In this document: positions 154-12,949 of the stretch, piece by piece
Layout: every line of letters starts with the position of its first letter
Position numbering within the stretch: position 1 is the stretch's first letter
Origin: Dehalococcoidia bacterium
GTDB taxonomy: Bacteria; Chloroflexota; Dehalococcoidia; SM23-28-2; RBG-16-64-32
Assembly: GCA_030690405.1 (NCBI GenBank)
Contig: JAUYGU010000056.1
Span: 1 to 13,400, forward strand
Length of the DNA: 13,400 nucleotides
Reading direction: 5' to 3'
The notes under the pieces: model-generated
What the model was told of the DNA's origin: nothing
Database searches by the model: none
Seen by the model: the letters and a program-made list of their open reading frames with translations, nothing else
Position numbers and translations under genes: made by a program

Positions 154-1596
154 CTAGCGCTTGTCCGCATCCACGATGCGCAGGAAGCGGTGCTTGCCGA
201 CGCGAAGAACGGAGCCGTGCCTCACGAATGCGAATTCGCTCGCTGCCTTCTCACCGTCAACATCGACGCCGCCCTGTGCGACTATGCGGTTCGCTTCCAA
301 CCGGCTCAGACCAAACGTGGGCTCTATGATGTCATAAAGGCTCAGCACAATGCCCTGCCCAGACTCAATGCCTTGTCTGTGCCGGTCGACCTCACTAATC
401 GCCCGTTTCGGCGGTGCCTCGACGGCCCTGACAAGAAGAAGCCGGTCTACACCGTCGTAACGGACACGCGCATCAGCATCCGAAAGTGGCTGATCTTCAA
501 AGTTGCCGGTCGGCCTAGCCCACCGCCCCTCCTTCAATAGGTTCGCGACCTTACGAAACGGCATCTCGACCACTGGAACCTGTTCCTCCGGCAGCTCCCG
601 CTTGCGGAAGGTGCGCTCGAAGCCGGCGTTCGCCTCCTCGGCGGCGTCCCAGCTGTGGAACTGCGAGACGACCTCGCGCGCCAGGCGCATCTTGTGCTCC
701 ATGGGGTTGGCGGTGCGTTTCTCGATGGACTGCCGGATATCGGCCAGCTCTCCATCCGGAACGCTGGTGAGCAGCTCGAAGTAGTCCATGATCAGCGTGT
801 CGGGGATGGACATGAGCTTGCCGTACATCTCGTGGGGCGGGTCGTCGATGGCGATGAAGTTGCCGAGCGACTGGCTCATCTTCTGCGTGCCGTCCAGCCC
901 GACGAGGAGCGGCACCAGGAGCACAGCCTGCCCCTCGCCGGCGGGCCCCGCCTTCTGGCCGGCCGCCCGCTGCAGCTCACGCCCCAGCAGGATGTTGAAC
1001 TTCTGGTCCGTGCCGCCGAACTCCATGTCGGCTTCGACCGCCACGGAATCGTACGCCTGGAGCAGCGGGTAGAGCAGCTCGTGCAGGCCGATCGGCTTGT
1101 GCGCGGCGAACCGCTGGGCGAAGTCGTCCCGCTCGAGGATCTGGGCAACGGTGACGCGCGCCGCCAGGCGGACGACGTCGGTCAGGGTGAAGCCGTCGAA
1201 CCATTCGGACTGGCGGCGGATCTCGGTGCGGGACTCGTCGAGCACCTTGTAGAACTGGCGCAGGATCGCCTCCGAGTTCGCCTGCACCTCCTCCGCGGTC
1301 AGCATCGACCGCGTCTGGGACTGGCCGGAGGGGTCGCCGATGCGCGCCGTCCAGTCGCCGATGATGACGACGACGGTGTGGCCCAGGTCCTGGAGCTGGC
1401 GCAGCTTGCGCAGGCCCACGGCCCAGCCGAGGGTGATCACCGGCTTCGTGGGGTCGAACCCCATCTTGAGGCGCAGCCGCCGGCCGGAGCGGAGGCCGTC
1501 CACGAACTCCCGCTGGGGGACGATCTCGGCGACGGCGCGGGTGGTGATGCGGCGAAGCTCTTCGTCGGTGGGGATACGGGGCTTAGGGTTCGTCAT
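154..1596 (-). CDS. tyrS: tyrosyl-tRNA synthetase (TyrRS), with degenerate HIGH motif
   Basis: Class I synthetase that charges tRNA-Tyr in the cytoplasm; 480 residues against about 400-430 for most bacterial TyrRS. The tyrosine pocket is intact: YPLLQAYDS near 176-184 and FGGTDQKFN near 193-201. IGDPSG (86-91) and a C-terminal S4 RNA-binding domain (about 428-478) are also present. The ATP-site signature is not: where relatives read DLHLGH, residues 53-58 read VITLGW, so both histidines are lost, and KMSKS is KMSQS (239-243). An extra stretch of about 60 residues lies between the linker and S4 (about 356-425), in DNA of visibly lower GC than the rest. The start is ATG at 1596, which lines up with the family N-terminus. 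No Shine-Dalgarno precedes it, but it overlaps by four bases the TGA of a small upstream ORF. Either a divergent working enzyme or a paralogue with another role; family assignment is secure, activity is not. Confidence 0.93.
   Translation of the reverse strand: MTNPKPRIPTDEELRRITTRAVAEIVPQREFVDGLRSGRRLRLKMGFDPTKPVITLGWAVGLRKLRQLQDLGHTVVVIIGDWTARIGDPSGQSQTRSMLTAEEVQANSEAILRQFYKVLDESRTEIRRQSEWFDGFTLTDVVRLAARVTVAQILERDDFAQRFAAHKPIGLHELLYPLLQAYDSVAVEADMEFGGTDQKFNILLGRELQRAAGQKAGPAGEGQAVLLVPLLVGLDGTQKMSQSLGNFIAIDDPPHEMYGKLMSIPDTLIMDYFELLTSVPDGELADIRQSIEKRTANPMEHKMRLAREVVSQFHSWDAAEEANAGFERTFRKRELPEEQVPVVEMPFRKVANLLKEGRWARPTGNFEDQPLSDADARVRYDGVDRLLLVRAVEAPPKRAISEVDRHRQGIESGQGIVLSLYDIIEPTFGLSRLEANRIVAQGGVDVDGEKAASEFAFVRHGSVLRVGKHRFLRIVDADKR
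1541..1580 (-). repeat. 40-bp direct repeat, copy A (inside tyrS codons 6-19)
   Basis: This 40-base block within the 5' end of tyrS is repeated without mismatch at 1729-1768, in the same orientation. It encodes the residues around RIPTDEELRRITT. Confidence 0.95.
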
Positions 1597-1784
1597 GACA
1601 GTCGGGCCGCGACGGGGATCAGGGTTACTGCGAGAACCACCGTTTGCCCCTCCCAAGATTCCTTCGCGGCAGGCGTTAGTTCCCCGTACGGGCGCTGTCG
1701 GCGCTCAGAATGACAGGGCGGCCCCTGCGTGGTGATGCGGCGAAGCTCTTCGTCGGTGGGGATACGGGCGTTAGCTTCGGGCAT
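1593..1784 (-). CDS. small bridging ORF made of a tyrS 5' copy plus repeat DNA (63 aa)
   Basis: It starts at ATG 1784 with a G-rich GCGGGG run about seven bases upstream. Its first 19 residues copy the TyrRS N-terminus (six variable residues, then RIPTDEELRRITT). It then reads through a dispersed repeat without a stop and ends in a TGA that overlaps the tyrS ATG as ATGA. The frame extends upstream to a GTG at 1814. Protein function is unlikely. Its plausible role is to carry ribosomes to the tyrS start, which has no Shine-Dalgarno of its own. That role is inference from the layout. Confidence 0.3.
   Translation of the reverse strand: MPEANARIPTDEELRRITTQGPPCHSERRQRPYGELTPAAKESWEGQTVVLAVTLIPVAARLS
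1647..1716. repeat. dispersed repeat family F, copy 1
   Basis: The ends are conserved among four copies in the window: one end reads CCCTCCCAAGATTCCTTCGC and the other GCTCAGAATGACAGG on the plus strand, with a variable core of about 35 bases. Here it lies between the tyrS start and the duplicated tyrS 5' end. No protein function is expected. Confidence 0.75.
1729..1784 (-). pseudogene. duplicated, truncated 5' end of tyrS
   Basis: ATG at 1784 begins a copy of the tyrS N-terminus. Codons 2-6 differ (PEANA instead of TNPKP) but the next 40 bases are identical to tyrS, and the homology ends abruptly at 1729 where unrelated repeat DNA begins. The initiation region was therefore duplicated, or two tyrS starts recombined. 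Perfect identity in the 40-base core beside divergence in the first codons is odd for a simple recent duplication. Confidence 0.75.
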
Positions 1785-1796
1785 GACGCAGCCCCG

Positions 1797-1904
1797 CCCA
1801 TAGCGGGCGACCACAGGGGGTCGCCCCTACCTCGATTGGCTCACGGCTAGCCCATAGCGGGCGACCACAGGGGGTCGCCCCTACCTCGATTGGCTCACGG
1901 CTAG
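1797..1904 (-). repeat. perfect tandem duplication of a 54-bp unit with a GTAG-footed hairpin
   Basis: Units 1797-1850 and 1851-1904 appear identical. Each contains, on the minus strand, GTAG followed by a hairpin with stem GGGCGACC / GGTCGCCC and a six-base loop (1805-1830 and 1859-1884). The second unit ends inside the ribF stop codon. The form matches the REP-like elements elsewhere in the window, with a longer loop. With 54 being a multiple of three, the copy number can change without shifting frame. Confidence 0.93.
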
Positions 1905-2851
1905 CCACGGCCGCCCCCCAGCCGCGCGAAGTACTCACGGGTGTCGGCGATGTCGCGGTGCATCTGCGCCACCAGCTCATCGACCGAATCGAACTTCAGC
2001 TCGTCGCGCAGGCGGTGCAGCAGGTCGATGCGCACCTCCTGGCCGTAGATGTCGCCGTCGAAGGCGATGATGAACGCCTCCACCGTGGGACGCGGCTCCG
2101 AGTCGAACGTGGGACGCACGCCGACGTTGGTGCACGACCGGTACTCGCCCTCGCGGACGTAGGCGCGGGTGACGTAGACGCCGAAGGCGGGGAGGGCGCG
2201 GTCCAGGCCGATGGCGATGTTGGCGGTGGGGAAGCCCAGCCCGGCGCCCCGGTGGGCGCCCGCGACGACAGGCCCGCGCAGGGAGAACGGCCTCCCCAGC
2301 AGCCGCGCCACCTCCTCCACATCGCCGGCGGCCAGCGCCTGGCGGACGGCGGAGGAGCCGATCTTCTCGCCGTCGCGCGTCAGGAGGTCGGCGGTCTCCA
2401 CCCGGAAGCCGAGCTCGCCGCCGATCTTACGCAGCAGGCCCGCCGTGCCTTCGCGGTTGCGGCCGAGGGCGAAGTCCGGCCCGACGAGGAGCAGGCGCAT
2501 GCGCAGCTCCTCCATCAAGAGAGCCACGAAGTCGCGGGCGGAGAGCTGGGCCATCTCCGAGGTGAACGGCAGGATGCCGACGCTGTCCGGCCCGAGCTGT
2601 CGGAGCAGCTCCAGCCGCTCCTCCAGGCTGGTCAGGTAGTTGACGGCGGTACCCGGCCTGAGCACCGTGGTGGGGCTGGGATAGAGGATGATGACGACTG
2701 AGGCGAGGTTCTCCGCCCGCGCCCGCTCGATGAGGCGGGCGATGAGGTGCTGGTGGCCGCGGTGGACGCCATCGAACTTGCCGATGGTGACGGCGGCGTC
2801 GCGCCCGGGGGCGATGCGGGCCAGCTCCTCGCGGGCGAGCGTCACGCTCAC
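1901..2851 (-). CDS. ribF: bifunctional riboflavin kinase / FAD synthetase
   Basis: Makes FMN from riboflavin and ATP, then FAD from FMN and ATP, in the cytoplasm; 316 residues, usual for RibF. The N-terminal FAD synthetase (nucleotidyltransferase) domain shows TIGKFDGVHRGH at 22-33 and later VGPDFALGRNREG. The middle reads GEKIGSSAVRQAL. The C-terminal riboflavin kinase domain shows GLGFPTANI, NVGVRPTFD and VEAFIIAFDGDIYG. The start is GTG at 2851, which overlaps the TGA of the upstream URO-D-like gene (GTGA) and puts the first family-like residues close behind it; the longer open frame upstream is the shadow of that gene. It stops with TAG at 1901-1903, at the edge of the tandem repeat. Pairing with tyrS downstream fits an operon. 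Confidence 0.96.
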   Translation of the reverse strand: MSVTLAREELARIAPGRDAAVTIGKFDGVHRGHQHLIARLIERARAENLASVVIILYPSPTTVLRPGTAVNYLTSLEERLELLRQLGPDSVGILPFTSEMAQLSARDFVALLMEELRMRLLLVGPDFALGRNREGTAGLLRKIGGELGFRVETADLLTRDGEKIGSSAVRQALAAGDVEEVARLLGRPFSLRGPVVAGAHRGAGLGFPTANIAIGLDRALPAFGVYVTRAYVREGEYRSCTNVGVRPTFDSEPRPTVEAFIIAFDGDIYGQEVRIDLLHRLRDELKFDSVDELVAQMHRDIADTREYFARLGGGRG

Positions 2852-3846
2852 GAGCGGGCCACCTCCACGATGGCGAGGAGGTTCTGCGGCGGCGTCTGCG
2901 GGTCGATGGAGCACTCCGGGGCGAGCAGCAGGCGGCGTCCGTCGGTGGCGTCCAGCGCCTCCTCCGCCTCGGCGGCGATGTCCGCGGGAGCGCCCTTGAG
3001 GATCGTCTCCTGGTGATCGATGCCGCCCATGAGCGCCCGCTCCGTCTTCGCCGCGATCTCGGCGAGCGAGGGGTTCGTCGGGGAGCGCGAGCCCCACTGG
3101 AAGACCTGCACCGGGTAGTCCAGGAGGTGCTCGAGCAGGTTGTTGTCGCGGCAGACGTGCAGGACGTTGAACGGCGCTTCGCGGACCGCTCCGAGAACGC
3201 GCAGGTCGAACGGCCGCGCGAAGCGGTCGTAGTCATCGGGCGAGATGTTGTCGCGGCTGCCCCACTCCACGGTGGCGAAGAAGACGCCGGCGGCGCCCCG
3301 CTGGAGGCAGGCCGCGGCGTAGGCGGCCAGCGTCTCAGCGACCGCGTCCAGGGCCGGGAGCAGCGCCTCCGGGGCCTCCCGCATCAGCTTCTGGACGTAC
3401 TTCGTGGAGCCGGTGAGCCGGCTCATCGCCGCCAGGGGGGAGAAGACCGTCTGGAGGAAGGGCGCCTCTCCCCCCAGCCCGCGGGCGATGAGGGAGAGCG
3501 CGGCAAGCTGCTCGCCGTAGGCGCCCTGGGTGACGTCCAGCGGGCGGACGCGGCGGAGGTCATCGGGGGAGCCGACGCCGGGCTCGATGAGCTTCGGCTG
3601 CTGGTAGGGCTCGGCGGACTGTACGTATTGCGCGCCCCAGTCCTCGGCGTAGTAGCAGGCGCGGGGGTTCACCTTCACGAAATCCCAGTCGTAGCGGCGG
3701 TAGGCCTCCAGGGTGGCCTCCGCGAGCCCCTCCGCCGACCACTCGCGGGGGAAGTCGTGCCACCAGGCGGAAACGGGGACGCAGTCCAACTCCTCGCCGC
3801 GCACGGCGGCGAATACGCGCTCGGGCTTGGACATCGCGGTGGCCAT
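2848..3846 (-). CDS. URO-D superfamily protein, MtaA/CmuA-like (possible cobamide- or thiol-dependent methyltransferase)
   Basis: 332 residues with the TIM-barrel outline of the uroporphyrinogen decarboxylase superfamily. The arginine-rich substrate motif near the N-terminus of true HemE is absent, so heme synthesis is unlikely. It instead has LHVCRDN with His230 and Cys232, and Cys312 in LLLAPECSID followed by PQTPPQNL. This His-x-Cys...Cys arrangement is the zinc-binding pattern of the MtaA/CmuA methyltransferase branch. Trp-rich WWHDFP lies at 28-33. The substrate cannot be told from the sequence, and no corrinoid protein is encoded nearby. Start choice: ATG at 3846, with an alternative in-frame ATG at 3834; a TACACT -10-like box sits ten bases before the first. 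The gene ends in a GTGA overlap with ribF, suggesting co-translation, although the two functions are not obviously related. Confidence 0.85.
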   Translation of the reverse strand: MATAMSKPERVFAAVRGEELDCVPVSAWWHDFPREWSAEGLAEATLEAYRRYDWDFVKVNPRACYYAEDWGAQYVQSAEPYQQPKLIEPGVGSPDDLRRVRPLDVTQGAYGEQLAALSLIARGLGGEAPFLQTVFSPLAAMSRLTGSTKYVQKLMREAPEALLPALDAVAETLAAYAAACLQRGAAGVFFATVEWGSRDNISPDDYDRFARPFDLRVLGAVREAPFNVLHVCRDNNLLEHLLDYPVQVFQWGSRSPTNPSLAEIAAKTERALMGGIDHQETILKGAPADIAAEAEEALDATDGRRLLLAPECSIDPQTPPQNLLAIVEVARS

Positions 3847-3905
3847 CGCGAGAGTTAGTGTACGGGAAACGGCCGCGCGGTCGCCAGTGGGGGAGGTTTG
3901 CCGTA

Positions 3906-3925
3906 CCCCAGCCTGAAGGCTGGGG
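3906..3925. repeat. hairpin with TTCA/TGAA loop (family H)
   Basis: Perfect stem of eight base pairs, CCCCAGCC / GGCTGGGG, with loop TGAA on the plus strand (TTCA on the minus strand). No T-tract follows, so it is not an obvious intrinsic terminator. Same loop as six other hairpins in the window but a different stem. Confidence 0.8.
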
Positions 3926-4065
3926 CATCAAGAGGATCGCGCTGGCCGCGCTTCATGACCGCAAGCATGCCGGGCCGCCCGCCAGCAACGGTTCGCCCCC
4001 TCGCGCTCCCCCGGTGGGCGTCGGGGCGAGACTCAGGGCCATCTGACCCACCACTCTCCACAACC

Positions 4066-4130
4066 CCAGATTCCTTCGCGGCGAACCGGGCTTCGAAGAG
4101 GCAGATGTGGCCGGCGCTCAGAATGACAGG
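4066..4130. repeat. dispersed repeat family F, copy 2
   Basis: The AGATTCCTTCGC end and GCTCAGAATGACAGG end match the other copies; the core differs. Confidence 0.75.
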
Positions 4131-4155
4131 GGGGCGGTTACGGGCGCGGCTCCGT

Positions 4156-4178
4156 GGCGACCTGAAGGTCGCCGCTAC
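4156..4178 (-). repeat. REP-like element: GTAG foot plus hairpin
   Basis: On the minus strand GTAGC is followed by stem GGCGACC / GGTCGCC with loop TTCA. It lies about 30 bases beyond the scpA stop codon. Confidence 0.75.
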
Positions 4179-4208
4179 ATCACATCGCCACGTCCGGATG
4201 GTCGCGCG

Positions 4209-4937
4209 CTACGCCGGCTCGGGCGCGGTCTCTACCAGCGTGATCTCGCCGAAGGGACGGTCCTGCTCCGCCCAGAGGCGGGCGCCCTTGATCATCTCCA
4301 GCACCGCCAGGAACAGCACCACGATCTCCGTGCGGGTCTCGCAGGCGGCGAGCAGCTTGCGGAAGGCGAGCCGTCCGCCCGTGCGCTCGAGCGCCAGGGA
4401 GAGCTCACCGATCTTCTCGTCGACGGTGACCGGCTCGATCTCGATTACGGCCTCTTCGGGCTCGGGCGGCTTGCGGGCCAGCGCCTCGCGGACGGCCTGC
4501 ATGAGGCCGTCCACGGTCACGCCCTGGAGGCCGGGCGGCAGGGGGACCTCCTTGCCCGGGGCGAGGCGGGTGTAGCCGCGGCGGCCCTTCTCCTCCAGCT
4601 CGCCCAGGATCTCGGCGGCGTCCCGGAAGCGCTTGTACTCCTCCACCATGCGGGCTAGCTCCGCCGCCACATCGCCTTCGTCGCGGAGCGGCTCCTCCTT
4701 CGGCGGCGACGCCGAGGGCAGGAGGGCGCAGGATTTGATGTAGAGCAGCCGGGAGCCGATGAGGATGAAGTCGGCGAGGGCGTCAGGCTCCAGCCCGCCG
4801 TTCGATTCGACGTGCTGCCAGTACTGGTCGGCGACCTGGGCGAGGGACAGTACGGTTATGTCGAGCTGTTCCCGCTCGATCAGGTCCAGGAGCAGGTCGA
4901 GCGGCCCGGAGAAGCCGTCGACCTTCAGTTCCAGCAT
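4209..4937 (-). CDS. scpA: segregation and condensation protein A (kleisin)
   Basis: Kleisin subunit that bridges the SMC heads, with ScpB, in the chromosome-condensing complex. It has 242 residues, within the family range. The N-terminal SMC-neck-binding helix region is recognisable: FSGPLDLLLDLIEREQLDI at 9-27, then QVADQYW and LADFILIGSRLLYIKS. A charged, probably helical linker follows (about 85-120). The C-terminal winged-helix part contains RLAFRKLLAAC and EIVVLFLAVLEMIKGARL, typical of the SMC-head-binding end. The start is ATG at 4937, the first codon of the conserved N-terminus. A perfect TATAAT ends only eight bases before the ATG, so a leaderless transcript is likely. scpB is not in the window; downstream lies a repeat-filled gap. 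Confidence 0.95.
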   Translation of the reverse strand: MLELKVDGFSGPLDLLLDLIEREQLDITVLSLAQVADQYWQHVESNGGLEPDALADFILIGSRLLYIKSCALLPSASPPKEEPLRDEGDVAAELARMVEEYKRFRDAAEILGELEEKGRRGYTRLAPGKEVPLPPGLQGVTVDGLMQAVREALARKPPEPEEAVIEIEPVTVDEKIGELSLALERTGGRLAFRKLLAACETRTEIVVLFLAVLEMIKGARLWAEQDRPFGEITLVETAPEPA

Positions 4938-4944
4938 CTCGCTT

Positions 4945-4950
4945 ATTATA
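4945..4950 (-). promoter_or_regulatory. TATAAT -10 box directly before scpA (leaderless promoter candidate)
   Basis: A perfect minus-strand TATAAT is separated by seven bases from the scpA ATG. A normal transcription start would fall at or next to the ATG, leaving no room for a Shine-Dalgarno. No good -35 match is seen 16-18 bases upstream. Confidence 0.6.
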
Positions 4951-4997
4951 ACGGGGCCAGACGGCGTAGGTGTCCCGCGGGAGACTGCGAGCCCTTC

Positions 4998-5060
4998 CGT
5001 AGCTGCAGGCCTTCAGGCCTGCTGGCCTGGGTGAGGCTGGGCTGAAGCCCTGCAGCTACG
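4998..5060. repeat. BIME-like pair of inverted REP-like elements
   Basis: Two GTAG-footed hairpins face each other between the DAHP synthase gene and scpA. The plus-strand one (4999-5022) has stem GCAGGCC / GGCCTGC and loop TTCA. The minus-strand one (5039-5059) has stem GGGC / GCCC and loop TTCA. The outer arms CGTAGCTGCAGG (4998-5009) and CCTGCAGCTACG (5049-5060) form a perfect 12-base inverted repeat, so the whole block could also fold into one branched structure. Confidence 0.85.
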
Positions 5061-5092
5061 CGGCCCACATCCCGTTCGTCGTGTCGCGCGGG

Positions 5093-6151
5093 CTAGCTCG
5101 CTTTCCTGACCGCCGCCGTCAACTCATCAATGGACGGCGCCACCGGATGGCCCGTAGCCTCCGCCACCGTGCGCACCTGCTCCATCAGCTTGTCGAAGTT
5201 CGCCGGGGTGAGGGACTGCGGGCCGTCGGAGAGGGCCTGGTCCGGGTTCGGGTGCACCTCGATGAGCAGGCCGTCGACGCCGGCGGCGACGGCGGCAAGG
5301 GCGATGGGCGGTACGAGGTACCATTTGCCGACGGCGTGGCTGGGGTCGCCGATGATAGGCAGGTGGCTCAGCCGCTTGATCACCGGGATGGCGTTGATAT
5401 CGAAGGTGAAGCGGGTGGCCGTCTCGTAAGAGCGAATGCCGCGCTCGCAGAGGATAACGTCGCGGTTGCCGTGGGAGAGGATGTATTCGGCGGCGAGCAG
5501 CCACTCCTCGATCGTCGCCCACATGCCACGCTTGAGGAGCACGGGCTTGTGCGCCTTGCCGACCTCGTCCAGGAGGGCGAAGTTCTGCATGTTGCGGCTG
5601 CCGATCTGGAGGATGTCGGCGTAGCGTGCGACGAGATCGACGTCGCGGGCGTCCATCACTTCGGTTACGATGGGCAGGCCGGTCTCGGCGCGGGCTTCGG
5701 CGAGGATCTTGAGGCCCTTTTCGCCGTGGCCGCGGAAGGCGTAGGGGCTAGTGCGGGGCTTGAAGGCGCCGCCGCGCAGGATGTGGGCGCCGGCGGCCTT
5801 CACCGCCCGCGCCGTCTCCATGACGTTCTCTTCCGTGTCCACCGAACAGGGACCCGCCATCATCACCAGGCGGCCGTTGCCGATCTCCAGCGGCCCCACT
5901 TTGACGATGGTGTCTTCCTCCTTCACCTCGCGGCTGGCGAGCTTGAAGGGCTTGCTGATGCGGACGACGGAGTCGACGCCGTCAAGGACGGCGAACTCGT
6001 CGAGGAGCTCCGGGTAGACGGCGCCGAGCACGGCGACGACGTTGCGCTCAACGCCGCGGATCAGGTGGTCCTTGAACCCCAGCTCTCTGATGTGCTTCTG
6101 GATAGCCAGTACCTTGGCTTCGGTGGCCTCTGTCTTCATTACGATGATCAT
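5093..6151 (-). CDS. aroF: 3-deoxy-7-phosphoheptulonate (DAHP) synthase, type I-beta
   Basis: Condenses phosphoenolpyruvate and erythrose 4-phosphate, the first step of the shikimate pathway. It has 352 residues with the layout of the Thermotoga-type enzyme: an N-terminal ferredoxin-like regulatory domain (about 1-70), then the TIM barrel. Motifs are AGPCSVD (99-105), [16 protein letters not shown] (126-141), [25 protein letters not shown] and GDPSHAVG. The metal ligands expected at Cys102, His272, Glu298 and Asp309 of the family are all at those positions. The regulatory domain implies feedback control by an aromatic product; which one cannot be told. Start ATG at 6151 is supported by AAAGGAG nine bases upstream; an in-frame ATG at 6139 is less well placed. 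It follows aroH by 51 bases, probably in the same transcript. Confidence 0.97.
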
Positions 6152-6202
6152 CTTGGTGGTCTCCTTTTTATCGGCGGTGGCGCGTTCCGGTTCTGGCGGG
6201 TC

Positions 6203-6583
6203 TTACCCCCGGCCGGGCGTGCGGTCCTCGAAGTCGGACCGCAGCACCCTGGCGCCGTGGAGATAGACGTGGGCGATATCGCTGGCTCTCCTGTCGGTGT
6301 TCACGTGGAGGAGAATGCGCAGACACAAGGGGAGGGAGCCCGGTACGTTCATCTCGTGTCCGCAGAGGAGGGCCACGTGAGTCCAGCCCATCTGTCTGGC
6401 GGCGAGAGCGGGGAATTCGGCGTTGAGGTCAGGGCTGGCTGTGAAGAAGGCGGAGGCTACGTCTTCGATATCTATCCCATTCGCCTCCACCATCGCTCCC
6501 AGGAGCTCGGTGGTGGCGGCCAGGATCGCCTCACGGGTGTTGGCCTTGACGGTGGTGGCGCCCCGGACGCCTCGAGTCAGCAT
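6203..6583 (-). CDS. aroH: chorismate mutase, AroH class
   Basis: Converts chorismate to prephenate, the entry to Phe and Tyr synthesis. It has 126 residues, the usual size of the Bacillus-type trimeric AroH. The start MLTRGVRGATTV matches the family N-terminus and sets ATG at 6583; the open frame reaches back to 6679 but that part looks like intergenic DNA. Residues matching the known active site are Arg7, Cys74, Glu77 (in GHEMNV), Arg89 (in CLRILL), Tyr107 (in HVYL) and Arg115 (in VLRSD). The gene lies between trpA and the DAHP synthase gene, so both branches of aromatic synthesis are present in one cluster. Its DNA is somewhat less GC-rich than that of the trpB-trpD block. Confidence 0.95.
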   Translation of the reverse strand: MLTRGVRGATTVKANTREAILAATTELLGAMVEANGIDIEDVASAFFTASPDLNAEFPALAARQMGWTHVALLCGHEMNVPGSLPLCLRILLHVNTDRRASDIAHVYLHGARVLRSDFEDRTPGRG

Positions 6584-6720: not shown

Positions 6721-7524
6721 TTAGACGGCAGCTCTTCGCCGGCCGGTAACCACCTCCGCATATCGCTTGACCTTCCTTACTCTCTCAGACGGATCGGAAC
6801 GGTCGATCTCGTCAATAATAGCACTGCCGATGACGGCGGCGTCCGCGATGCGGGCCACCGCACGGAAGTGCTTGGGCTTAGATATACCAAATCCTACCGC
6901 CACTGGCAAGGGGGTGCGGGCGCGAACGCGGTTAACGAACGCGGAAAGCCCGGCCGGCAGCTCCTCGCGGGCGCCGGTGACGCCTGTCACGCTCATGCAG
7001 TACACGAAGCCGGAGGCGAGCCCCGCGATCAGCTCTATCCGGCCGTCCGTACTGGTGGGGGCGAGCAAGTATATGAGGTCCAGCCCGTGTTGGCGGCAGG
7101 CGTCCCGCAGAGGGTGCGACTCCTCCGGCGGCAGGTCTACAGCGATGATGCCGTCGGCGCCGGCGGCCGCGGCGTCGCGGCAGAACTCCTCCAGGCCGTA
7201 GGCGAGCAGCGGGTTGTAGTAGCCCATCAGCACGATCGGCGCCTCAACGCCCTGCGTACGCAGCTTGGCGACGACATCCAGGCAGACCGCCGGCGTGACG
7301 CCCCGCGCCAGCGCGTGGTGGGAGGAGCGCTGGATGGTCGGGCCCTCGCCCAGAGGGTCGGAGAAGGGGACGCCCAGCTCGATGACGTCGGCGCCGCCTT
7401 CGATGAGCGCGGGCACCAGCCGCAGCGTCTCCTCCACGCTGGGGTATCCGGCGGTCAGAAAGGCGACGAGGCCGGTCCGCCGCCGGGCCCGCAGTCCGGC
7501 GAACGCCTCCGCTATGCGGCTCAA
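6721..7524 (-). CDS. trpA: tryptophan synthase alpha subunit
   Basis: Cleaves indole-3-glycerol phosphate to indole and glyceraldehyde 3-phosphate in the alpha2-beta2 tryptophan synthase complex. It has 267 residues, full length. Landmarks fall at the standard numbering: catalytic Glu49 in VIELGVPFSDPL, Tyr175 in VYCMSVTGVTG, and the C-terminal phosphate loop VGFGISKPKH. Position 60, normally the catalytic Asp of PLADGP, is Glu here (PLGEGP). The start is TTG at 7524, which overlaps the TGA of the CPBP gene as TTGA and gives the family N-terminus MSRIAEAF. It is separated from trpB by about 2.2 kb containing two plus-strand genes, so it depends on the CPBP promoter or its own, not on simple read-through from trpB. 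Confidence 0.96.
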   Translation of the reverse strand: MSRIAEAFAGLRARRRTGLVAFLTAGYPSVEETLRLVPALIEGGADVIELGVPFSDPLGEGPTIQRSSHHALARGVTPAVCLDVVAKLRTQGVEAPIVLMGYYNPLLAYGLEEFCRDAAAAGADGIIAVDLPPEESHPLRDACRQHGLDLIYLLAPTSTDGRIELIAGLASGFVYCMSVTGVTGAREELPAGLSAFVNRVRARTPLPVAVGFGISKPKHFRAVARIADAAVIGSAIIDEIDRSDPSERVRKVKRYAEVVTGRRRAAV

Positions 7525-8279
7525 CCTGCCACCCCGGAGACGGCCAGCCCGAAGCTGATGGAGTTGAACAGGAGATGCGCAATCATCGGGGCCAGTATGG
7601 AGCCGGAGTAGACGTAGCCCCAGGCGAAGATCATCCCCACGGCGGTGAAGGGGATGAAGACCAGCGGGTCGACGTGGGCCAGGGAGAAGAGGAAGCCGGT
7701 GGAGAGCGCCGCGAAGAAGAAGCCCCAGCGGCCCCGCAGTCCGCCGAACAGGAAGCCGCGGAAGAACGTCTCCTCCATAACCGGCGCCAGGGCCAGGGAG
7801 AGGATGCCCACCAGAACGGTCAGGGGCACGCTATCGAACGCTTCGTCGGGAATGTTGCTGCTGGGCTCCGCGCCGAGGGCGGCGATGATCGCGAAGTAGG
7901 TCCAGATCACTACCAGCGCGCCGCCCAGCAGGGCCAGGGGCAGCCACCAGCCACCGCGCTCCGGCAGCCGCAGCCCAACCATAGCCCAGGAGACTTTGTA
8001 CTTGCGCACGGTGAACAGGGCGACGGCCACGAGCAGGAAGAGCTCCAGGAGCAGGTTCGCACCCAGGAGCACCGCCAGGGCTGCGTCGTCGCTGGTCACG
8101 TCGGAGCCGCCGGCGATGAGGGCGGCTACCGCCGCCGCGGGCAAGGCCACCAGGATGGTGCCGCCGATGACGATGCCGATCGCCATCGCCATATCGGCGT
8201 AGCCCCAGGGCGTGCGACCGCCGGAGTCGGGCGGCTCCGCTATCTGCTCGATGGGAGGGAGCGCTTGCTCGAACGCCAT
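7521..8279 (-). CDS. CPBP-family intramembrane metalloprotease
   Basis: A multi-pass membrane protein of 252 residues with about six to eight hydrophobic segments. The three CPBP (CAAX protease/Abi) motifs are present: EETFFR at 169-174 (EExxxR), FSLAH at 198-202 (FxxxH) and HLLFN at 235-239 (HxxxN), so the active site looks complete. The family includes prenyl-protein proteases, bacteriocin immunity proteins and many uncharacterised members; the substrate cannot be predicted. Start ATG at 8279 has no clear Shine-Dalgarno; a TAGACT box ends six bases upstream. The gene ends in a TTGA overlap with trpA, an unexpected partner for a tryptophan gene, which suggests that the CPBP gene was inserted upstream of trpA or that the operon was rearranged. 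Confidence 0.92.
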   Translation of the reverse strand: MAFEQALPPIEQIAEPPDSGGRTPWGYADMAMAIGIVIGGTILVALPAAAVAALIAGGSDVTSDDAALAVLLGANLLLELFLLVAVALFTVRKYKVSWAMVGLRLPERGGWWLPLALLGGALVVIWTYFAIIAALGAEPSSNIPDEAFDSVPLTVLVGILSLALAPVMEETFFRGFLFGGLRGRWGFFFAALSTGFLFSLAHVDPLVFIPFTAVGMIFAWGYVYSGSILAPMIAHLLFNSISFGLAVSGVAG

Positions 8280-8292
8280 ACACCCAGTCTAA

Positions 8293-8320
8293 GGGGAACA
8301 GGGAACAGGGAACAAGGAAC
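8293..8320. repeat. 7-base tandem repeat, four units
   Basis: The units read GGGGAAC, AGGGAAC, AGGGAAC, AAGGAAC. On the minus strand this lies directly upstream of the TAGACT box of the CPBP gene, so unit number would alter promoter spacing. Confidence 0.85.
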
Positions 8321-8413
8321 ACAGCTGTTGACCCACCCTGTCGCCAAAGGCGACTCGCCTGGGCGAGAGCTTGTCGAAGGGGGCGCGAAGGGCAAACAAG
8401 GAAAGTCGCCGGC

Positions 8414-8437
8414 GGGCGACCTGAAGGTCGCCCCTAC
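8414..8437 (-). repeat. REP-like element: GTAG foot plus hairpin
   Basis: Minus strand GTAG directly followed by stem GGGCGACC / GGTCGCCC with loop TTCA, a perfect eight-base-pair stem. Confidence 0.8.
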
Positions 8438-8461
8438 GTCTCTTCGGGGGGATACTGGGCA

Positions 8462-9052
8462 GTGATGAACGACAGCGAGCGCTTCTGGGACGAACGCTAC
8501 CGGACGGAGGAAGCGGTGCCAGAGCGCGGCCCGGCCGACTTCCTGGTCGAGCACCGACACCTGCTGCCGCCCGCCGGCCGTGCGCTTGACGTGGCGATGG
8601 GGACGGGCCGCAACACGCTCTACCTGGCGTCTCTGGGGTACGAGGTTACGGGGATCGACGTGTCCGGCGTGGCGGTGGAGCGCTGCCGCGCGGAGGCCGG
8701 ACGCCGCGGCCTGCGCGTCGAGGCGGTGCAGGCGGACCTCGAGTCGTACCGGCCGCCCCGGCAGGCTTGCGACGTCGTGATCGACTTCTACTACCTGCAG
8801 CGCGACCTGGCGCCGGCGCTGGTCGCCGCCCTGCGGCCCGGCGGCGTGCTGGTGTTCGAGTCGTTCACGACGGAGCAGCGGCGGTTCGGCTGGGGGCCCG
8901 TGCAGGACGACTTCCTGCTGCGGCCGGGGGAGCTGCGGACGCTGTTCGCGGGGCTGGAGGAGCTCGTCTACCGGGAAGGTCTGGTGGAGAGCCAGAGCGG
9001 GCGGGGGACGAAGGCGGTTGCGGGGCTGGTGGCGCGGAAGCCGGCGGCGTAG
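8462..9052 (+). CDS. class I SAM-dependent methyltransferase (TehB-like outline)
   Basis: 196 residues with the Rossmann-type methyltransferase core. It begins FWDERYRTEEAVPERGPADF, as in TehB/thiopurine-methyltransferase-like proteins. Motif I is ALDVAMGTGRNTLYLA (41-56), with the acidic ribose-binding residue at Asp66 in TGIDVS. VQADLESY is the next motif, DVVIDFYYLQR is the motif IV region, and LRPGGVLVFESF follows. The usual ALDLGCG form of motif I is changed to ALDVAMG. The substrate is unknown. The start may be GTG at 8462 (ten bases after a GGGGGG run) or the ATG directly behind it at 8465. It is transcribed against the trp genes and, with the next gene, splits trpB from trpA. Confidence 0.9.
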   Translation: MMNDSERFWDERYRTEEAVPERGPADFLVEHRHLLPPAGRALDVAMGTGRNTLYLASLGYEVTGIDVSGVAVERCRAEAGRRGLRVEAVQADLESYRPPRQACDVVIDFYYLQRDLAPALVAALRPGGVLVFESFTTEQRRFGWGPVQDDFLLRPGELRTLFAGLEELVYREGLVESQSGRGTKAVAGLVARKPAA

Positions 9053-9091
9053 CGGGCCTTCCGGGGTCTCCTCGCCCCGGCCTGCCGGTGG

Positions 9092-9097
9092 TATAAT
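9092..9097 (+). promoter_or_regulatory. TATAAT -10 box of the SnoaL-like gene
   Basis: A perfect plus-strand TATAAT lies 41 bases before the ATG at 9139. A leader of about 35 bases with a strong Shine-Dalgarno, AAGAGGAGG (9123-9131), seven bases before the start would follow. The -35 region is weak. Unlike scpA, this gene has a conventional leader. Confidence 0.65.
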
Positions 9098-9138
9098 ACG
9101 GCGTTAGTATCGCCCTGTAGCCAAGAGGAGGCCACCTC

Positions 9139-9558
9139 ATGTCCGACGCTGCTTCTATCGCCCGCGAGTACAACGACGCCTGGAACCGGCGCGATTGGGC
9201 CCGCTACCGCGAACTCCTTCACCCTGAGTACACGTACACCGGCGGCGACGGGCAAACGCAGAAGGGGCAGGACGTAGGGCTGGCCGTTGGCCAGATGTTC
9301 GCCACCGCCTTCCCGGACGGCCGGATCGACGTCCAGAGCATCCACGCAGCCGGAAACGTCGCCATCGTCGAGTTCATCGGCCGTGGCAGCCACACCGGCG
9401 ATCTCATGGGCATCGCCCCGACCGGGCGGCAGATGACGATGCCGGTGTGCGACATCCTGGAGATTCGGGACGGGAAGATCTACGCCGAGCGGGAGTATAT
9501 GGACATGCTGCACATGATGCAGCAGCTCGGCGTCGCCCCCGCTCCGGCGACCGCGTAG
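9139..9558 (+). CDS. SnoaL-like / NTF2-fold protein, ester-cyclase type
   Basis: 139 residues with the pattern of the SnoaL-like polyketide cyclase and ester cyclase group: an N-terminal helix AREYNDAWNRRDWARYRELL, HPEYTYT, then a conical barrel with FATAFPDGRIDVQSI, VAIVEFIGRGSHTG, PTGRQMTMPVCDILEIRDGKI and a C-terminal YMDMLHMMQQLG helix. No signal peptide is seen. Proteins of this type are common outside polyketide clusters, so a function cannot be assigned, and no polyketide genes are nearby. Start ATG is well supported by the Shine-Dalgarno AGGAGG and its own promoter. It converges on trpB. Confidence 0.9.
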   Translation: MSDAASIAREYNDAWNRRDWARYRELLHPEYTYTGGDGQTQKGQDVGLAVGQMFATAFPDGRIDVQSIHAAGNVAIVEFIGRGSHTGDLMGIAPTGRQMTMPVCDILEIRDGKIYAEREYMDMLHMMQQLGVAPAPATA

Positions 9559-9609
9559 AGTTCGTTCGCTCTAGGCGAGAGCGCGGGTTTGCCCCGCCTG
9601 GTCCCAGAG

Positions 9610-9633
9610 GCCGGCCCTCTGCCGAGGGCCGGC
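9610..9633. terminator. candidate bidirectional terminator hairpin
   Basis: Perfect ten-base-pair stem GCCGGCCCTC / GAGGGCCGGC with loop TGCC, placed between convergent gene ends. No T-tract follows on either strand, so it is a structural candidate, not a classical intrinsic terminator. Confidence 0.45.
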
Positions 9634-9650
9634 GCCGGATTAGGGCGGCC

Positions 9651-9715
9651 GAGATTCTTCGCTCAGAGCCGCCGCCGTAAGCGGGTGGTTGTCTGGGGTC
9701 GCTCAGAATGACAGG
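9651..9715. repeat. dispersed repeat family F, copy 3
   Basis: GAGATTCTTCGC at one end and GGTCGCTCAGAATGACAGG at the other match the other copies with small changes. Located just beyond the trpB stop. Confidence 0.7.
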
Positions 9716-9741
9716 ACGGAGGCAGGCCTGAGCGCGTTGGG

Positions 9742-10941
9742 CTACTGACGCGCGCCCTCGAGGGCGTGGGCTACGATCTCGAGGTCCTTGTCGCCCCGGC
9801 CTGACAGGCAGACCAGGACGATGGCGCCAGCGGGCAGGCCCTTCGCCATCTCGGCCGCATGGTAGATGGCGTGCGCCGGCTCCAGCGCCGGGATGATCCC
9901 CTCCGTTTCGCACAGCAGTGTGAAACCCTGGAGGGCCTGTGCGTCCGTAACCGCCACGTACTCCGCGCGGCCGGACTCTTTGTAGAAGGCGTGCTCCGGC
10001 CCGACGCCCGGGTAGTCCAGGCCGGCGGAGATGGAGTGCGCCTCCCGCACCTGGCCGGCGTCGTCCTGAAGCAGGTAGGAGAGCGCGCCGTGGAGCACGC
10101 CGGGCCGCCCCGCGCCCAGCGAGGCGGCGTGATGGCCGCTCGCCAGCCCTTCGCCGGCGGCCTCTACGCCGACCAGCCGGACGGACTCGTCGGCGTAGAA
10201 CGGGTGGACGAGGCCGTTGGCGTTGGAGCCGCCGCCCACGCAGGCGACGGCGTAGTCAGGGAGCCGGCCCTCCGCCTCCAGCATCTGCTGGCGCGCCTCC
10301 GCGCCGATGACCGACTGGAAGTCGCGGACGATCATAGGGTAGGGGTGCGGCCCGACGACGGAGCCGAGCAGGTAGTGGGTCGTCTCGACGTTGGTCACCC
10401 AGTCGCGGATCGCCTCGTTGATCGCGTCCTTGAGGGTGCGCGAGCCGGAGTCGACGGGGCGGACCTCGGCGCCCAGCAGCTTCATCCGGAAGACGTTGAG
10501 GGCCTGGCGGCGGACATCCTCCGCGCCCATGTAGACGACGCACTCCAGACCCATCATCGCGCAGACGGTGGCGGTGGCGACGCCGTGCTGGCCGGCGCCG
10601 GTCTCGGCGACGACGCGCGGCTTGCCCATGCGCTTCGCCAGGAGCCCCTGGCCGAGGGCGTTGTTGATCTTGTGAGCGCCGGTGTGGGCCAGGTCCTCCC
10701 GCTTGAGGTAGATGCGGGCGCCGCCGGCGCGCTCCGACAGGCGGGCGGCGAAGTAGAGGGGGGTGGGCCTGCCCGCGTAGTCCCGCAGGAGCCCCGAAAG
10801 CTCCGCCTGGAAGGCCGCGTCCGCCTGGGCCGCGCGATAGACGCTCTCCAGCTCCGCGAGGGCGGACATGAGCGTCTCCGGTACGTACTGGCCGCCGAAC
10901 GGGCCGAAGCGGCCGCGCGCGTCGGGTAAGGGGACGGTCAC
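9742..10941 (-). CDS. trpB: tryptophan synthase beta subunit
   Basis: PLP enzyme joining indole and serine to tryptophan in the complex with TrpA. It has 399 residues, the usual TrpB1 length. The N-terminus [15 protein letters not shown] is typical. The PLP lysine is Lys91 in HTGAHKINN, the catalytic Glu is Glu113 in ETGAGQHG, and the phosphate loop GGGSN lies at 236-240. The C-terminus reads [11 protein letters not shown]. The start is GTG at 10941, overlapping the TGA of trpF as GTGA. The longer open frame upstream is a shadow of trpF. It is the last gene of the trpD-C-F-B block; trpA is not next to it. Confidence 0.97.
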
Positions 10942-11612
10942 GGCGTCTCCTTGGCGGCCTTGATGAAGGCGCGAATCTTGGCGACGTCCTTCACGCCGTC
11001 GGACTCGACGCCGGAGGAGACGTCGACGGCCCAGGGGTGGACTACCGCGACGGCGCGGGCGACGTTGTCGGGCCGCAGGCCGCCGGCGAGCATCACCGGT
11101 TGCTTGGTGGCCACCTGCGCGGCGACCGCCCAGTCGAGGGTGACGCCGGCGCCGCCGTAGGCGCCCTCGACGTAGGGGTCGAGGAGGAGGAGGGCGCCGC
11201 CGTGCACCTGCGCCAGCACCTCGGCGGCGGTCTGGCCGTGGCGGACCTTCAGGCACTTCAGCACCGGCCTCTCGATGAGCGCGCAGACGTCCCAGGGCTC
11301 GGAGCCGGATAGCTGGACGAGGTCCAGGCCGCACTCCCGCGCGATGCCGTTGATCGTGTCCGCGTCCTGGTCCGCGAAGACGCCGACCAGCAGCGGCCTG
11401 CCCGCGCGCAGCCGCGCCTCGACGGCTTCGACGGTGGCGGCGGCCGGCGGGGCGGCGCGCTCTCCGAGGGCCTTGGCGATGCGGCCGGCCTGGCCCATCG
11501 TCACCTGCCGCTGGCTGGGCGCGAAGACGACGCCGATGAGGTCGGCGCCACAGGCGGCGGCGGCGCGGGCGTGCCGGGGCTCCGATACACCGCAGATCTT
11601 AACGAGGGTCAT
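10938..11612 (-). CDS. trpF: phosphoribosylanthranilate isomerase
   Basis: Amadori isomerisation of phosphoribosylanthranilate to CdRP. It has 224 residues, about 20 longer than usual, owing to an Ala-rich insert near 51-72 (in and after [16 protein letters not shown]). The catalytic Cys7 (VKICGVS) is present, as is the aspartate in [21 protein letters not shown]; the phosphate-binding parts [10 protein letters not shown] and VDVSSGVE are intact. Start ATG at 11612 is fixed by the conserved MTLVKICG. There is no Shine-Dalgarno; instead the ATG overlaps the TGA of an 83-residue ORF coming from trpC. Its own stop overlaps the trpB GTG. Translational coupling on both sides is therefore likely. 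Confidence 0.96.
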
Positions 11613-11860
11613 AGCGGAGAACCCAGGAAGGTGAACCAGCGAACCAGAGACCCAGCAAACCAGGTCGTGAGGCAGAACCCTTCGACAGGCTCAGGGCAGG
11701 CTCTAGAAGCGAGAACCCAAGATGGCAACCCAGCACTGCGCATTGAAATGCGCGGCTGACGCGCGTGCGGTGGTCTGCCCCTCCCAAGATTCCTTCGCTG
11801 CGGGGTGCGGTGCCGCGAAAGAGCGTGGTCGCCGCTCAGAATGACACCTAACCACGTCAT
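11609..11860 (-). CDS. bridging small ORF between trpC and trpF (83 aa, repeat-derived)
   Basis: It starts at ATG 11860 in an ATGA overlap with the trpC stop, with GGGAG eight bases upstream, and ends at TGA 11609-11611 overlapping the trpF ATG. It begins MTWLG; the DNA ATGACGTGGTTAGG resembles the trpF start ATGACCCTCGTTAAG with one indel, so it may be a decayed copy of it. The rest is translated from repeat family F, a TTCA-loop hairpin, a CCCTTCGACAGGCTCAGGG repeat (ACPEPVEG) and a CTGGTT-type minisatellite (WFAGSLVRWF). A functional protein is unlikely; a ribosome bridge is the interesting possibility. Confidence 0.35.
   Translation of the reverse strand: MTWLGVILSGDHALSRHRTPQRRNLGRGRPPHARQPRISMRSAGLPSWVLASRACPEPVEGFCLTTWFAGSLVRWFTFLGSPL
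11624..11667 (-). repeat. degenerate minisatellite of AACCAG / CTGGTT units
   Basis: Several irregular units around GAACCAG, GAACCAGA, GACCCAGC and AAACCAGG (plus strand) lie just before the trpF start. They encode the Trp/Phe-rich end of the bridging ORF. Confidence 0.6.
11677..11702. repeat. CCCTTCGACAGGCTCAGGG dispersed repeat
   Basis: An imperfect palindrome; a related sequence with AAGCTC instead of AGGCTC occurs on the minus strand around 8367-8381. Confidence 0.6.
11736..11755. repeat. hairpin with TTCA/TGAA loop (family H)
   Basis: Stem CTGCGCAT / ATGCGCGG with loop TGAA on the plus strand, one T-G wobble pair. It is nearly identical to the hairpin at 12748-12767, where that pair is C-G. 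Confidence 0.75.
11777..11846. repeat. dispersed repeat family F, copy 4
   Basis: CCCCTCCCAAGATTCCTTCGC-type end and GCCGCTCAGAATGACA end, closest to copy 1 near tyrS. It begins about ten bases from the trpC stop. Confidence 0.75.
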
Positions 11861-12672
11861 CGGGCGGTCTCCCGGTCGGCGGGAAACAGCTCTCGGATCT
11901 TGGCCACCGGGTCCGGGGCGGTGACCAGCGCCTCGCCGATGAGGACGGCGTCCACGGGCAGGGCCCGCAGCCGCTCGACGTCGGCGCGGGTGAAGATGCC
12001 GGACTCAGCGACGAGGGTGACCTCGGGCGGGACGAGCGGGCGCAGCCGCTCCGTCGTCGCCAGGTCGACCTCGAACGTGCGGAGGTCGCGGTTGTTGACG
12101 CCGACGATGCGGGCGGAGGCCATGAGGGCGCGCTCCAGCTCCAACTCGTCGTGGACCTCCACCAGGGCGTCCATCTCCAGCGCCTGGGCCAGGCCGATGA
12201 GCTGGGCGAGCAGCGCCGGGTTGAGGACGGCGGCGATGAGGAGCACGGCGTCGGCGCCGTGGACGCGGGCCTCGTACAGCTGGTAGTGGTCGAACAGGAA
12301 GTCCTTGCGCAGGAGCGGCGGGCCGTCCGGCAGGTCGGCGCGGATCGCCGCGAGATGCGCCAGCGAGCCCTGGAAGTGCTTGGCGTCGGTGAGGACGGAG
12401 ACGGCGGCGGGCCCCGCGCCGGCGTAGGCGCGGGCCAGCGCCAGTGGGTCGAAGTCCGCGCGCAGGAGGCCGCGCGAGGGCGAGGCCTTCTTCACCTCGG
12501 CGATGAGGCGGACGGTGTCCCCCTTCAGCGCCCCGCCGAAGGGGCGGACGGGCGGCGCCTCCGGCAGGCGCGCCTTCAGCTCGTCGAAGGGGACGCGGAG
12601 GCAGGTCGCCTCCAGCTCCTCCCGCTTGCCGGCGACGATGCGGTCGAGGACCGTATCCGTGCGCTGGGTCAC
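11857..12672 (-). CDS. trpC: indole-3-glycerol phosphate synthase
   Basis: Closes the indole ring by decarboxylating CdRP. It has 271 residues, a normal monofunctional TrpC. Catalytic and binding residues of the TIM barrel are present: Glu59 and Lys61 in LIAEVKKASPSRG, Lys123 in LLRKDFLFD, Glu172 in LVEVHDELE, Asn193/194 in VGVNNRDL, and Glu223-Ser224 in VAESGIF. The start is GTG at 12672, reading MTQRT, preceded by GGGGGG six bases upstream and overlapping the TGA of a small ORF (GTGA). Two further copies of this start with ATG occur upstream at 12836 and 12949, the last overlapping the trpD stop. The ancestral start was therefore probably ATG joined directly to trpD. The stop at 11857 overlaps the start of the bridging ORF to trpF. 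Confidence 0.96.
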   Translation of the reverse strand: MTQRTDTVLDRIVAGKREELEATCLRVPFDELKARLPEAPPVRPFGGALKGDTVRLIAEVKKASPSRGLLRADFDPLALARAYAGAGPAAVSVLTDAKHFQGSLAHLAAIRADLPDGPPLLRKDFLFDHYQLYEARVHGADAVLLIAAVLNPALLAQLIGLAQALEMDALVEVHDELELERALMASARIVGVNNRDLRTFEVDLATTERLRPLVPPEVTLVAESGIFTRADVERLRALPVDAVLIGEALVTAPDPVAKIRELFPADRETAR

Positions 12673-12836
12673 GAGCCACCCCCCGAAGCGCAGGCTTTAG
12701 CCTGCGACCTTGCCGCAGTCTTCGCCGCCGAAGGGATGAGAACCACACCGCGCATTGAAATGCGCGGCTTCTGTTGCTGCCCCATGCCGCGGGCTTCAGC
12801 CCGCGGTGCCGGCCCGAATCCCGTGCGCTGGGTCAT
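12669..12836 (-). CDS. bridging small ORF 2 between trpD and trpC (55 aa)
   Basis: It starts at ATG 12836 with AGGAG six bases upstream, begins MTQRT like TrpC, and ends in a TGA that overlaps the trpC GTG. Its body encodes three repeat hairpins. Its start overlaps the stop of bridging ORF 1. No protein family is recognised. Confidence 0.35.
   Translation of the reverse strand: MTQRTGFGPAPRAEARGMGQQQKPRISMRGVVLIPSAAKTAARSQAKACASGGGS
12689..12706. repeat. hairpin, family H variant with TTTA loop
   Basis: Perfect stem CGCAGGC / GCCTGCG with loop TTTA on the plus strand. Confidence 0.75.
12748..12767. repeat. hairpin with TTCA/TGAA loop (family H)
   Basis: Perfect eight-pair stem CCGCGCAT / ATGCGCGG with loop TGAA on the plus strand. 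Confidence 0.8.
12787..12806. repeat. hairpin with TTCA loop (family H)
   Basis: Perfect eight-pair stem CCGCGGGC / GCCCGCGG with loop TTCA on the plus strand, opposite in orientation to its neighbours. Confidence 0.8.
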
Positions 12837-12949
12837 GCGAAGCTCCTGTCCCATACCGACACCGCGCACTGAAGTACGCGGCATGAGCCGCCTCCCCCCG
12901 CCCCGGGCTGAAGCCCGGGTGCCGCTGCCAAACCCGTGCGCTGGGTCAT
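12833..12949 (-). CDS. bridging small ORF 1 between trpD and trpC (38 aa)
   Basis: It starts at ATG 12949 in an ATGA overlap with the trpD stop, with GGGAG six bases upstream. It begins MTQRT as TrpC does and ends with TGA at 12833-12835 overlapping the ATG of bridging ORF 2. Too short for a family match; probably a relay for ribosomes or a by-product of duplication. Confidence 0.35.
   Translation of the reverse strand: MTQRTGLAAAPGLQPGAGGGGSCRVLQCAVSVWDRSFA
12862..12881. repeat. hairpin with TTCA/TGAA loop (family H)
   Basis: Stem CCGCGCAC / GTACGCGG with one C-A mismatch, loop TGAA on the plus strand. Confidence 0.7.
12902..12919. repeat. hairpin with TTCA/TGAA loop (family H)
   Basis: Perfect seven-pair stem CCCGGGC / GCCCGGG with loop TGAA on the plus strand. 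Confidence 0.8.

Follow-up and report, generated by a model that had tools for sequence, protein, structure and literature searches.

The stretch of DNA analyzed here (the window) comprises positions 1 to 13,400 of contig JAUYGU010000056.1 (assembly GCA_030690405.1) from a Dehalococcoidia bacterium, and its nearest relatives are Chloroflexi/Dehalococcoidia records. Its minus strand carries the end of trpD followed by trpC, trpF, and trpB and, further along, a CPBP protease gene, trpA, aroH, a DAHP synthase gene, scpA, a corrinoid-methyltransferase-like gene, ribF, and tyrS. Three junctions on this strand, trpD/trpC, trpC/trpF, and ribF/tyrS, hold repeat-filled gaps of 273, 244, and 304 nt, respectively, which are crossed by short open reading frames (ORFs) that lead, stop onto start, to the next gene (Table 1). 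From comparison of these junctions with those of related genomes, we posit, with a probability of about two in three, that selection retains inserts that preserve stop/start coupling.

The original prediction held that four small ORFs run through the inserts without a stop and end in a TGA on the next true start, and so they do: the four mini-ORFs (38, 55, 83, and 63 aa) contain no in-frame stop, the TGA of every one overlaps the following start within ATGA or GTGA, and the start-to-start spacings of the four units (113, 164, 248, and 188) match the frame requirement. Its claim that 4-base (-4) overlaps are restored holds for trpD/trpC and trpC/trpF but not for ribF/tyrS, which is entered through overlaps of 8 nt and 14 nt before the -4 overlap at tyrS and is thus not a pure -4 chain; since a fifth ORF of 45 aa links ribF to the 63-aa ORF, a chain of overlapping frames crosses this insert as well. 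The odds first given, one in three for each ORF before stops were counted, were too generous: under a null that combines random phase with a dinucleotide-shuffled gap, the chance is 0.17 at trpD/trpC and 0.15 at trpC/trpF, and a looser chain such as that at ribF/tyrS has a chance of 0.14. The DNA being GC-rich, the stop-free state alone is only mildly unusual, and the main signal is phase. The predicted contrast in Shine-Dalgarno (SD) sites was borne out, with anti-SD duplex energies of -3.1 kcal/mol at trpF and -1.7 kcal/mol at tyrS versus -6.6 to -9.3 kcal/mol upstream of the five bridging ORFs; trpC has a good site of its own (-10.7). Because trpF and tyrS of the window lack an SD while the bridging starts have one, hand-over would be their likeliest source of ribosomes. 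That the mini-ORFs, open over 38-83 codons in the four named cases, code for conserved small proteins is very hard to credit, given that none of the four has a Pfam match (E 0.1), that a homologue search, made for the 83-aa ORF alone, found nothing, and that they consist of repeat DNA, joined in most by copied gene ends; with no Pfam match and no homologue, this candidate was rejected.

Table 1. Features at the insert-bearing junctions of the window; hairpins are labeled as repetitive extragenic palindromic (REP) sequences according to the reading given in the text.
Feature	Position	Strand	Remarks
trpD 3' part	12946..13400	-	stop TGA inside ATGA 12946-12949
Junction copy 1, ACCCAGCGCACGGG	12918..12959	-	trpD tail with SD-like GGGAG, ATGA, trpC head
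Bridging ORF a, 38 aa	12833..12949	-	from ATGA of trpD to next ATGA; no Pfam match
Palindrome CCCGGGC-TGAA-GCCCGGG	12902..12919		
REP hairpin GCCGCGTAC-TTCA-GTGCGCGGT	12861..12882	-	identical hairpin in G002 trpD/trpC insert
Junction copy 2 (AGGAGCTTCGC ATGA CCCAGCGCACGGG)	12805..12846	-	
REP hairpin CCGCGGGC-TTCA-GCCCGCGG	12787..12806		
REP hairpin CCGCGCAT-TGAA-ATGCGCGG	12748..12767		
REP-like hairpin, TTTA loop	12689..12706		
Bridging ORF b, 55 aa	12669..12836	-	terminates on GTGA of trpC; no Pfam match
Junction copy 3	12657-12672	-	15/16; first 16 nt of trpC
trpC	11857..12672	-	first 16 nt are junction copy 3
Bridging ORF c, 83 aa	11609..11860	-	from ATGA of trpC to ATGA of trpF; no Pfam match
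Dispersed repeat, 74 nt, family D8	11773..11846		78% identity with 1642-1715
REP hairpin GCGCAT-TGAA-ATGCGC	11738..11753		
trpF	10938..11612	-	weak SD
ribF	1901..2851	-	stop TAG inside GTGGCTAG
Fifth bridging ORF, 45 aa	1771..1908	-	8-nt overlap with ribF, 14-nt with 63-aa ORF
54-nt unit copy 1 (D15)	1850..1903		ribF stop region plus GTAG-headed palindrome 1859-1884
54-nt unit copy 2 (D15)	1796..1849		100% identity with copy 1
tyrS start-region duplicate (D14)	1729..1787	-	59 nt, 88%; right arm 49/56
Bridging ORF d, 63 aa	1593..1784	-	from tyrS duplicate to ATGA of tyrS; no Pfam match
Dispersed repeat, 74 nt, family D8	1642..1715		within ribF/tyrS insert
tyrS	154..1596	-	no SD

The second start that makes such a chain possible is copied host DNA in most of the units scored. 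The scoring covered 15 bridged units from the window and its relatives (G001 to G016 are relatives' genomes, and L numbers are loci from such relatives), and 10 of them have 12-56 nt of a neighboring gene's end copied across the insert (P <=0.0012 per arm, two arms per unit, against random pairs of RTGA, that is, ATGA or GTGA); with the gene end duplicated, both genes remain whole and the ATGA is present twice. Only bridged units were scored, so their spans, which range from 35 to 248 nt, equal 2 mod 3 by construction, and the ribF tandem lies outside the count. Around the trpD/trpC insert of the window the trpC start region is present three times, copies 1 and 2 agreeing at 9/10 positions of the left arm and 27/32 of the right. 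At the end of the trpC/trpF inserts of G002, G004, and G015 the TrpC tail recurs (twice in tandem in G015), and the insert between lysS and a methyltransferase gene in G015 terminates in a second LysS tail. No scored copy was found in the remaining five units, namely, trpC/trpF of the window (bridging ORF c) and units of G012, G008, G003, and G011. Since the surroundings of the second ATGA are the host gene's end in 10/15 units and differ from locus to locus, the suggestion that the mobile unit brings an initiation region with it and settles at ATGA junctions, docking then being a property of the unit and not of selection, is mostly unsupported and in our view improbable. The exception is ribF/tyrS of G011 (L274), where an end, CTCAGAATGACA, resembling that of the dispersed repeat provides the ATGA start of tyrS.

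REP-type palindromes with a variable stem and a TTCA or TTTA loop are present in the inserts along with other dispersed repeats, of which a 74-nt repeat is common to the trpC/trpF and ribF/tyrS inserts. Across 39 related sites, collected with a pattern that left six inner stem positions free of any pairing demand, pairing is seen in 211 of the 234 inner cells; several pair types occur at five positions, and the sixth, nearly always C-G, is uninformative. A G015 sample of 100 contigs (1.00 Mb) holds 118 hairpins with TTCA/TTTA loops versus 16, 22, and 18 for three control-loop pairs, and such hairpins lie in 22 of 294 same-strand gaps versus 1, 2, and 0 with control loops. These hairpins are not due to chance. 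The first 20 contigs of G002 were less rewarding, with three TTCA/TGAA hairpins in 155 kb. We read the insert hairpins as probable REPs. A GTAG head is present in one hairpin class (window 4166 and 8425), and the main insert class is headed by ATGCC. The family to which G002 belongs (the nearest relatives, Chloroflexota) comprises 15 genomes, and 11 of these score above the profile cut-off for the Y1 transposase family PF01797, which also includes IS200-type enzymes; PF01797 gives no match at that cut-off in G001, G002, G006, and G016. TTCA/TTTA hairpins occur at 12 of 15 fetched PF01797 loci, or 11 without L260, whose sole hairpin is ~0.8 kb off, and are absent from L254, L255, and L258; the ATGCC class is present in L248 and GTAG classes in L249, L250, L257, L261, and L262. 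A REP-associated tyrosine transposase (RAYT) may have moved the palindromes. In G015 (L149, near 8195) the TAG stop of ribF seems to be supplied by the GTAG head of a REP, and REP termini that provide TAG stops are described in excerpts of PMC3733652.

Orthologous junctions in relatives, where start codons were assigned by reading, display the arrangement with and without inserts. The trpC and trpF genes overlap directly at -4 in G001, are separated by a bridged REP insert in the window, G002, G004 (of the same order as the family of G002 and outside the 15-genome list), and G015 and by a short bridged insert in G006, G008 (18-aa bridge), and G012, and enclose whole genes docked through ATGA at both ends in G005, G010, G011, and G016. 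The docked genes (L004, L070, L072, and L075) encode 284-288 aa with similar N-termini in G010, G011, and G016 and 325 aa with a different N-terminus in G005. The ribF/tyrS junction, for which the G001 contig ends within tyrS, overlaps directly in G002, G007, and G012 and is bridged in the window, G003, G011, and G015 (window and G015 by the loose test only). Simple repeats read in frame appear to extend the N-terminus of TyrS at this junction in G010 (L273) and that of TrpF in G003 (L003, 9956-10000). The lysS/methyltransferase pair overlaps at -4 in G010, G011, and G016 and by more in G005 and G006, and in G015 it holds a bridged REP insert. At trpD/trpC, where the comparison does not extend to G011, bridges span the inserts of the window, G002, and G015, the two genes adjoin directly in G004, and short uncoupled gaps separate them in G006, G008, G010, and G012. 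The trpF/trpB pair overlaps directly in the window, G002, G005, G006, G008, G010, G012, and G014.

An RTGA upstream stop is present at 13 insert junctions; 12 of them pass the strict test for a bridge, the sole miss being trpD/trpC of G003, and the chance per junction (random phase and shuffled gap) is 0.011-0.352. After exclusion of the two window junctions and of lysS, which was found through a search for bridges, 9 of 10 are bridged (Poisson-binomial P of 4.7e-7 if the junctions are independent; trpC/trpF of G008, found later, is not in the P value). The strict test is inapplicable to 5 of 18 junctions because these have no RTGA stop (ribF/tyrS of the window and G015; trpD/trpC of G006, G010, and G012, unbridged gaps of 20, 18, and 7 nt); we rely on it because the loose test, which admits overlaps of <=20 nt, is weak, with a chance of 0.14-0.67 at bridged junctions. 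Recurrence of the same insert anatomy in the separate assemblies G002, G004, G015, G003, and G011 makes chance or an assembly artefact a very remote explanation, even if the window inserts are not comparable with a second assembly of the same organism.

Genome-wide counts were made in relatives and not in the genome of the window. In the G015 sample, genes were called with a simple custom finder, which recovers 14 genes from the window; the counts cover same-strand gaps of 40-600 nt, and pairs with masked bases (30/676) were dropped. REPs or related repeats occupy 29 gaps, of which 12 follow an RTGA stop; six of these 12 are bridged against a null mean of 1.34, a count reached by 1 in 1000 null sets. 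The other RTGA gaps are bridged in 8 of 51 cases against 4.54 in the null (68/1000 null sets), an enrichment that is not significant; two of the eight (L193 and L240) were called repeat-free by the detector, and L193 is REP-like by eye. No bridge (0/12) survives when the REP gaps are shifted by 1 or 2 nt, while phase-keeping shuffles still bridge 2.5 on average, which identifies phase as the signal. Elsewhere, gaps in which no repeat was detected are bridged in 3 of 15 cases in G004, versus 1.74 in fixed-phase shuffles, and in 0 of 9 in G002. Small samples of two other genomes held no bridged REP gap: that of G004 has 7 REP gaps and that of G002, taken from contigs, has 4, with one RTGA stop in each. 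RTGA upstream stops are commoner in REP gaps of G015 than in others (12/29 versus 51/262, P 0.015), as they would be if the element targeted such junctions, yet 17 of the 29 follow TAG or TAA; like a unit that brings its own ATGA, targeting seems to us a poor candidate for the origin of docking.

Several observations weigh against selection for coupling. Six of the 12 RTGA REP gaps in G015 lack a bridge, most of its REP gaps follow stops other than RTGA, and the samples of G004 and G002 yielded no bridged REP gap; the independent-locus test in G015 is small, three of its six bridged gaps (trpD/trpC, trpC/trpF, and lysS) also figure among the orthologous junctions, another (L195, 406 nt with a 137-aa ORF) could be a gene, and, with 2.5 bridges in phase-keeping shuffles versus 6 in the real gaps, the lack of stops is only mildly above expectation. 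The junction list was compiled by reading junctions, with whole-gene inserts left out, and its 9/10 are not fully independent because the trpC/trpF inserts may descend from one event. The G003 trpD/trpC insert is unbridged, the trpC/trpF gene insert of G003 is not docked on both sides, and gene inserts at trpF/trpB lack two-sided docking in G001, G003, G004, G015, and G016. G002, which has REP inserts, lacks a PF01797 match, and an SD in a copied upstream tail could start gene B without coupling. In an unlikely alternative, the copied junction gives gene B its own SD and start, the mini-ORF has no role, and its frame is a by-product of shared ancestry, of a low content of stops, and of the natural openness of copied gene ends. 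Copied trpC tails do retain an SD before trpF (-6.6 kcal/mol in G002, G015, and G004), and the mini-ORF may matter less where such a tail was copied; the modest deficit of stops, the possible single origin of the trpC/trpF inserts, and the unbridged RTGA gaps of G015 also fit. Against this alternative stand the 12/13 RTGA insert junctions that are in phase and open over the full range of unit spans, trpF and tyrS of the window, which have no useful SD, the five bridged units without a scored duplication, and an enrichment confined to REP gaps. The proposal that only inserts that keep ribosomes flowing survive remains the best supported, by orthologous inserts that are in phase and open and by the REP-gap enrichment, but it is a tendency and no strict rule.

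Unless ribosomes are guided across it, a repeat within a coupled junction is expected to do harm, because a spacing of ~20 nt nearly abolishes reinitiation at -4 overlaps (excerpts of PMC10666635) and untranslated RNA invites Rho (excerpts of PMC12548453). We posit that RAYT-type REP palindromes and other dispersed repeats enter operon junctions that have an ATGA or GTGA stop-start overlap and that, at most scored sites, the host junction (the upstream tail with its SD, or the ATGA with the downstream head) becomes duplicated with the repeat between the copies. The first ATG(A) would then open a mini-ORF across the repeat, which, if in phase and free of stops, would close on the TGA that overlaps the following start. 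Having finished gene A, ribosomes would begin again on the mini-ORF, traverse the repeat, and reinitiate on gene B, and their passage would melt the hairpins and keep the RNA covered. Inserts that break the chain would lose coupling, cause polarity, and tend to be purged by selection. The duplications could have originated (i) as long target duplications upon insertion or (ii) by tandem duplication first, with the repeat arriving later; according to excerpts of PMC2817692, larger target duplications are not produced by IS200/IS605 enzymes.

Mycobacterial interspersed repetitive units (MIRUs), which reportedly go back to Supply et al. 1997, are the closest parallel. Excerpts of a 2025 review (PMC12548453) present the MIRU as an intergenic repeat, apparently mobile, that lies at a start codon and whose own ORF is coupled to the gene at -4, a design proposed to limit its effect on expression; the bridging design was thus already known, contrary to the original prediction that no such system had been described. 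The window units likewise sit at start codons with an ORF that meets the gene at -4, a likeness of design, but the present inserts vary in length, hold palindromes of varying sequence, are often flanked by 12-56 nt of copied host gene ends, and reside in a Chloroflexota and not a mycobacterial host, many of whose relatives carry Y1 transposases. With REPs, bacterial interspersed mosaic elements, and RAYTs as depicted in excerpts of PMC2817692 and PMC3733652, they share short palindromes, compensating stems, and, in relatives, hairpins beside Y1 transposase genes; of the GTAG/GTGG heads expected of REPs, GTAG is seen here in one class, which is not the main insert class; TTCA-loop REPs appear in a published table (PMC2817692, excerpt), and insertion is known here from presence or absence between species. 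They differ from the REPs described in those excerpts in lying within -4 coupled junctions and in having in-phase bridging ORFs and gene-end duplications. Rickettsia palindromic elements and intragenic REPs are likewise palindromic repeats tolerated when the reading frame is kept (PMC3733652, excerpts), but they lengthen the protein of one gene, whereas the three window inserts separate whole genes, as independent mini-ORFs. Work on termination-reinitiation at -4 explains the cost of an untranslated insert and concerns direct gene pairs, with repeats unmentioned in the excerpts (PMC10666635 and PMC6728339). Exact-word matching within an open-access library found neither a REP-built version of the arrangement nor a link to long gene-end duplications, and the arrangement looks like a variant, apparently new, of the MIRU-like design built from REPs. 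Tentatively, and at somewhat less than even odds, RAYT-type REPs may have reached the MIRU strategy independently, with insertion duplicating 12-56 nt of the junction and selection for hand-over keeping the reading phase.

Elsewhere in the window, a plus-strand pair at 8465-9558, with methyltransferase-domain and SnoaL-like genes assigned by Pfam, lies between trpB on one side and the CPBP protease and trpA genes on the other, and an Rfam scan of the window returned no match.

If selection does retain inserts that preserve coupling, comparison of species would reveal how strongly stop/start coupling constrains operons, with repeats entering coupled junctions for the most part only if a copy of the junction is made and the reading frame maintained. 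The inserts would then provide a natural set of mini-ORFs for the measurement of reinitiation and would tie REP biology to a MIRU-like strategy, raising the question of how palindromes linked to IS200-like enzymes acquire long flanking copies of host sequence.

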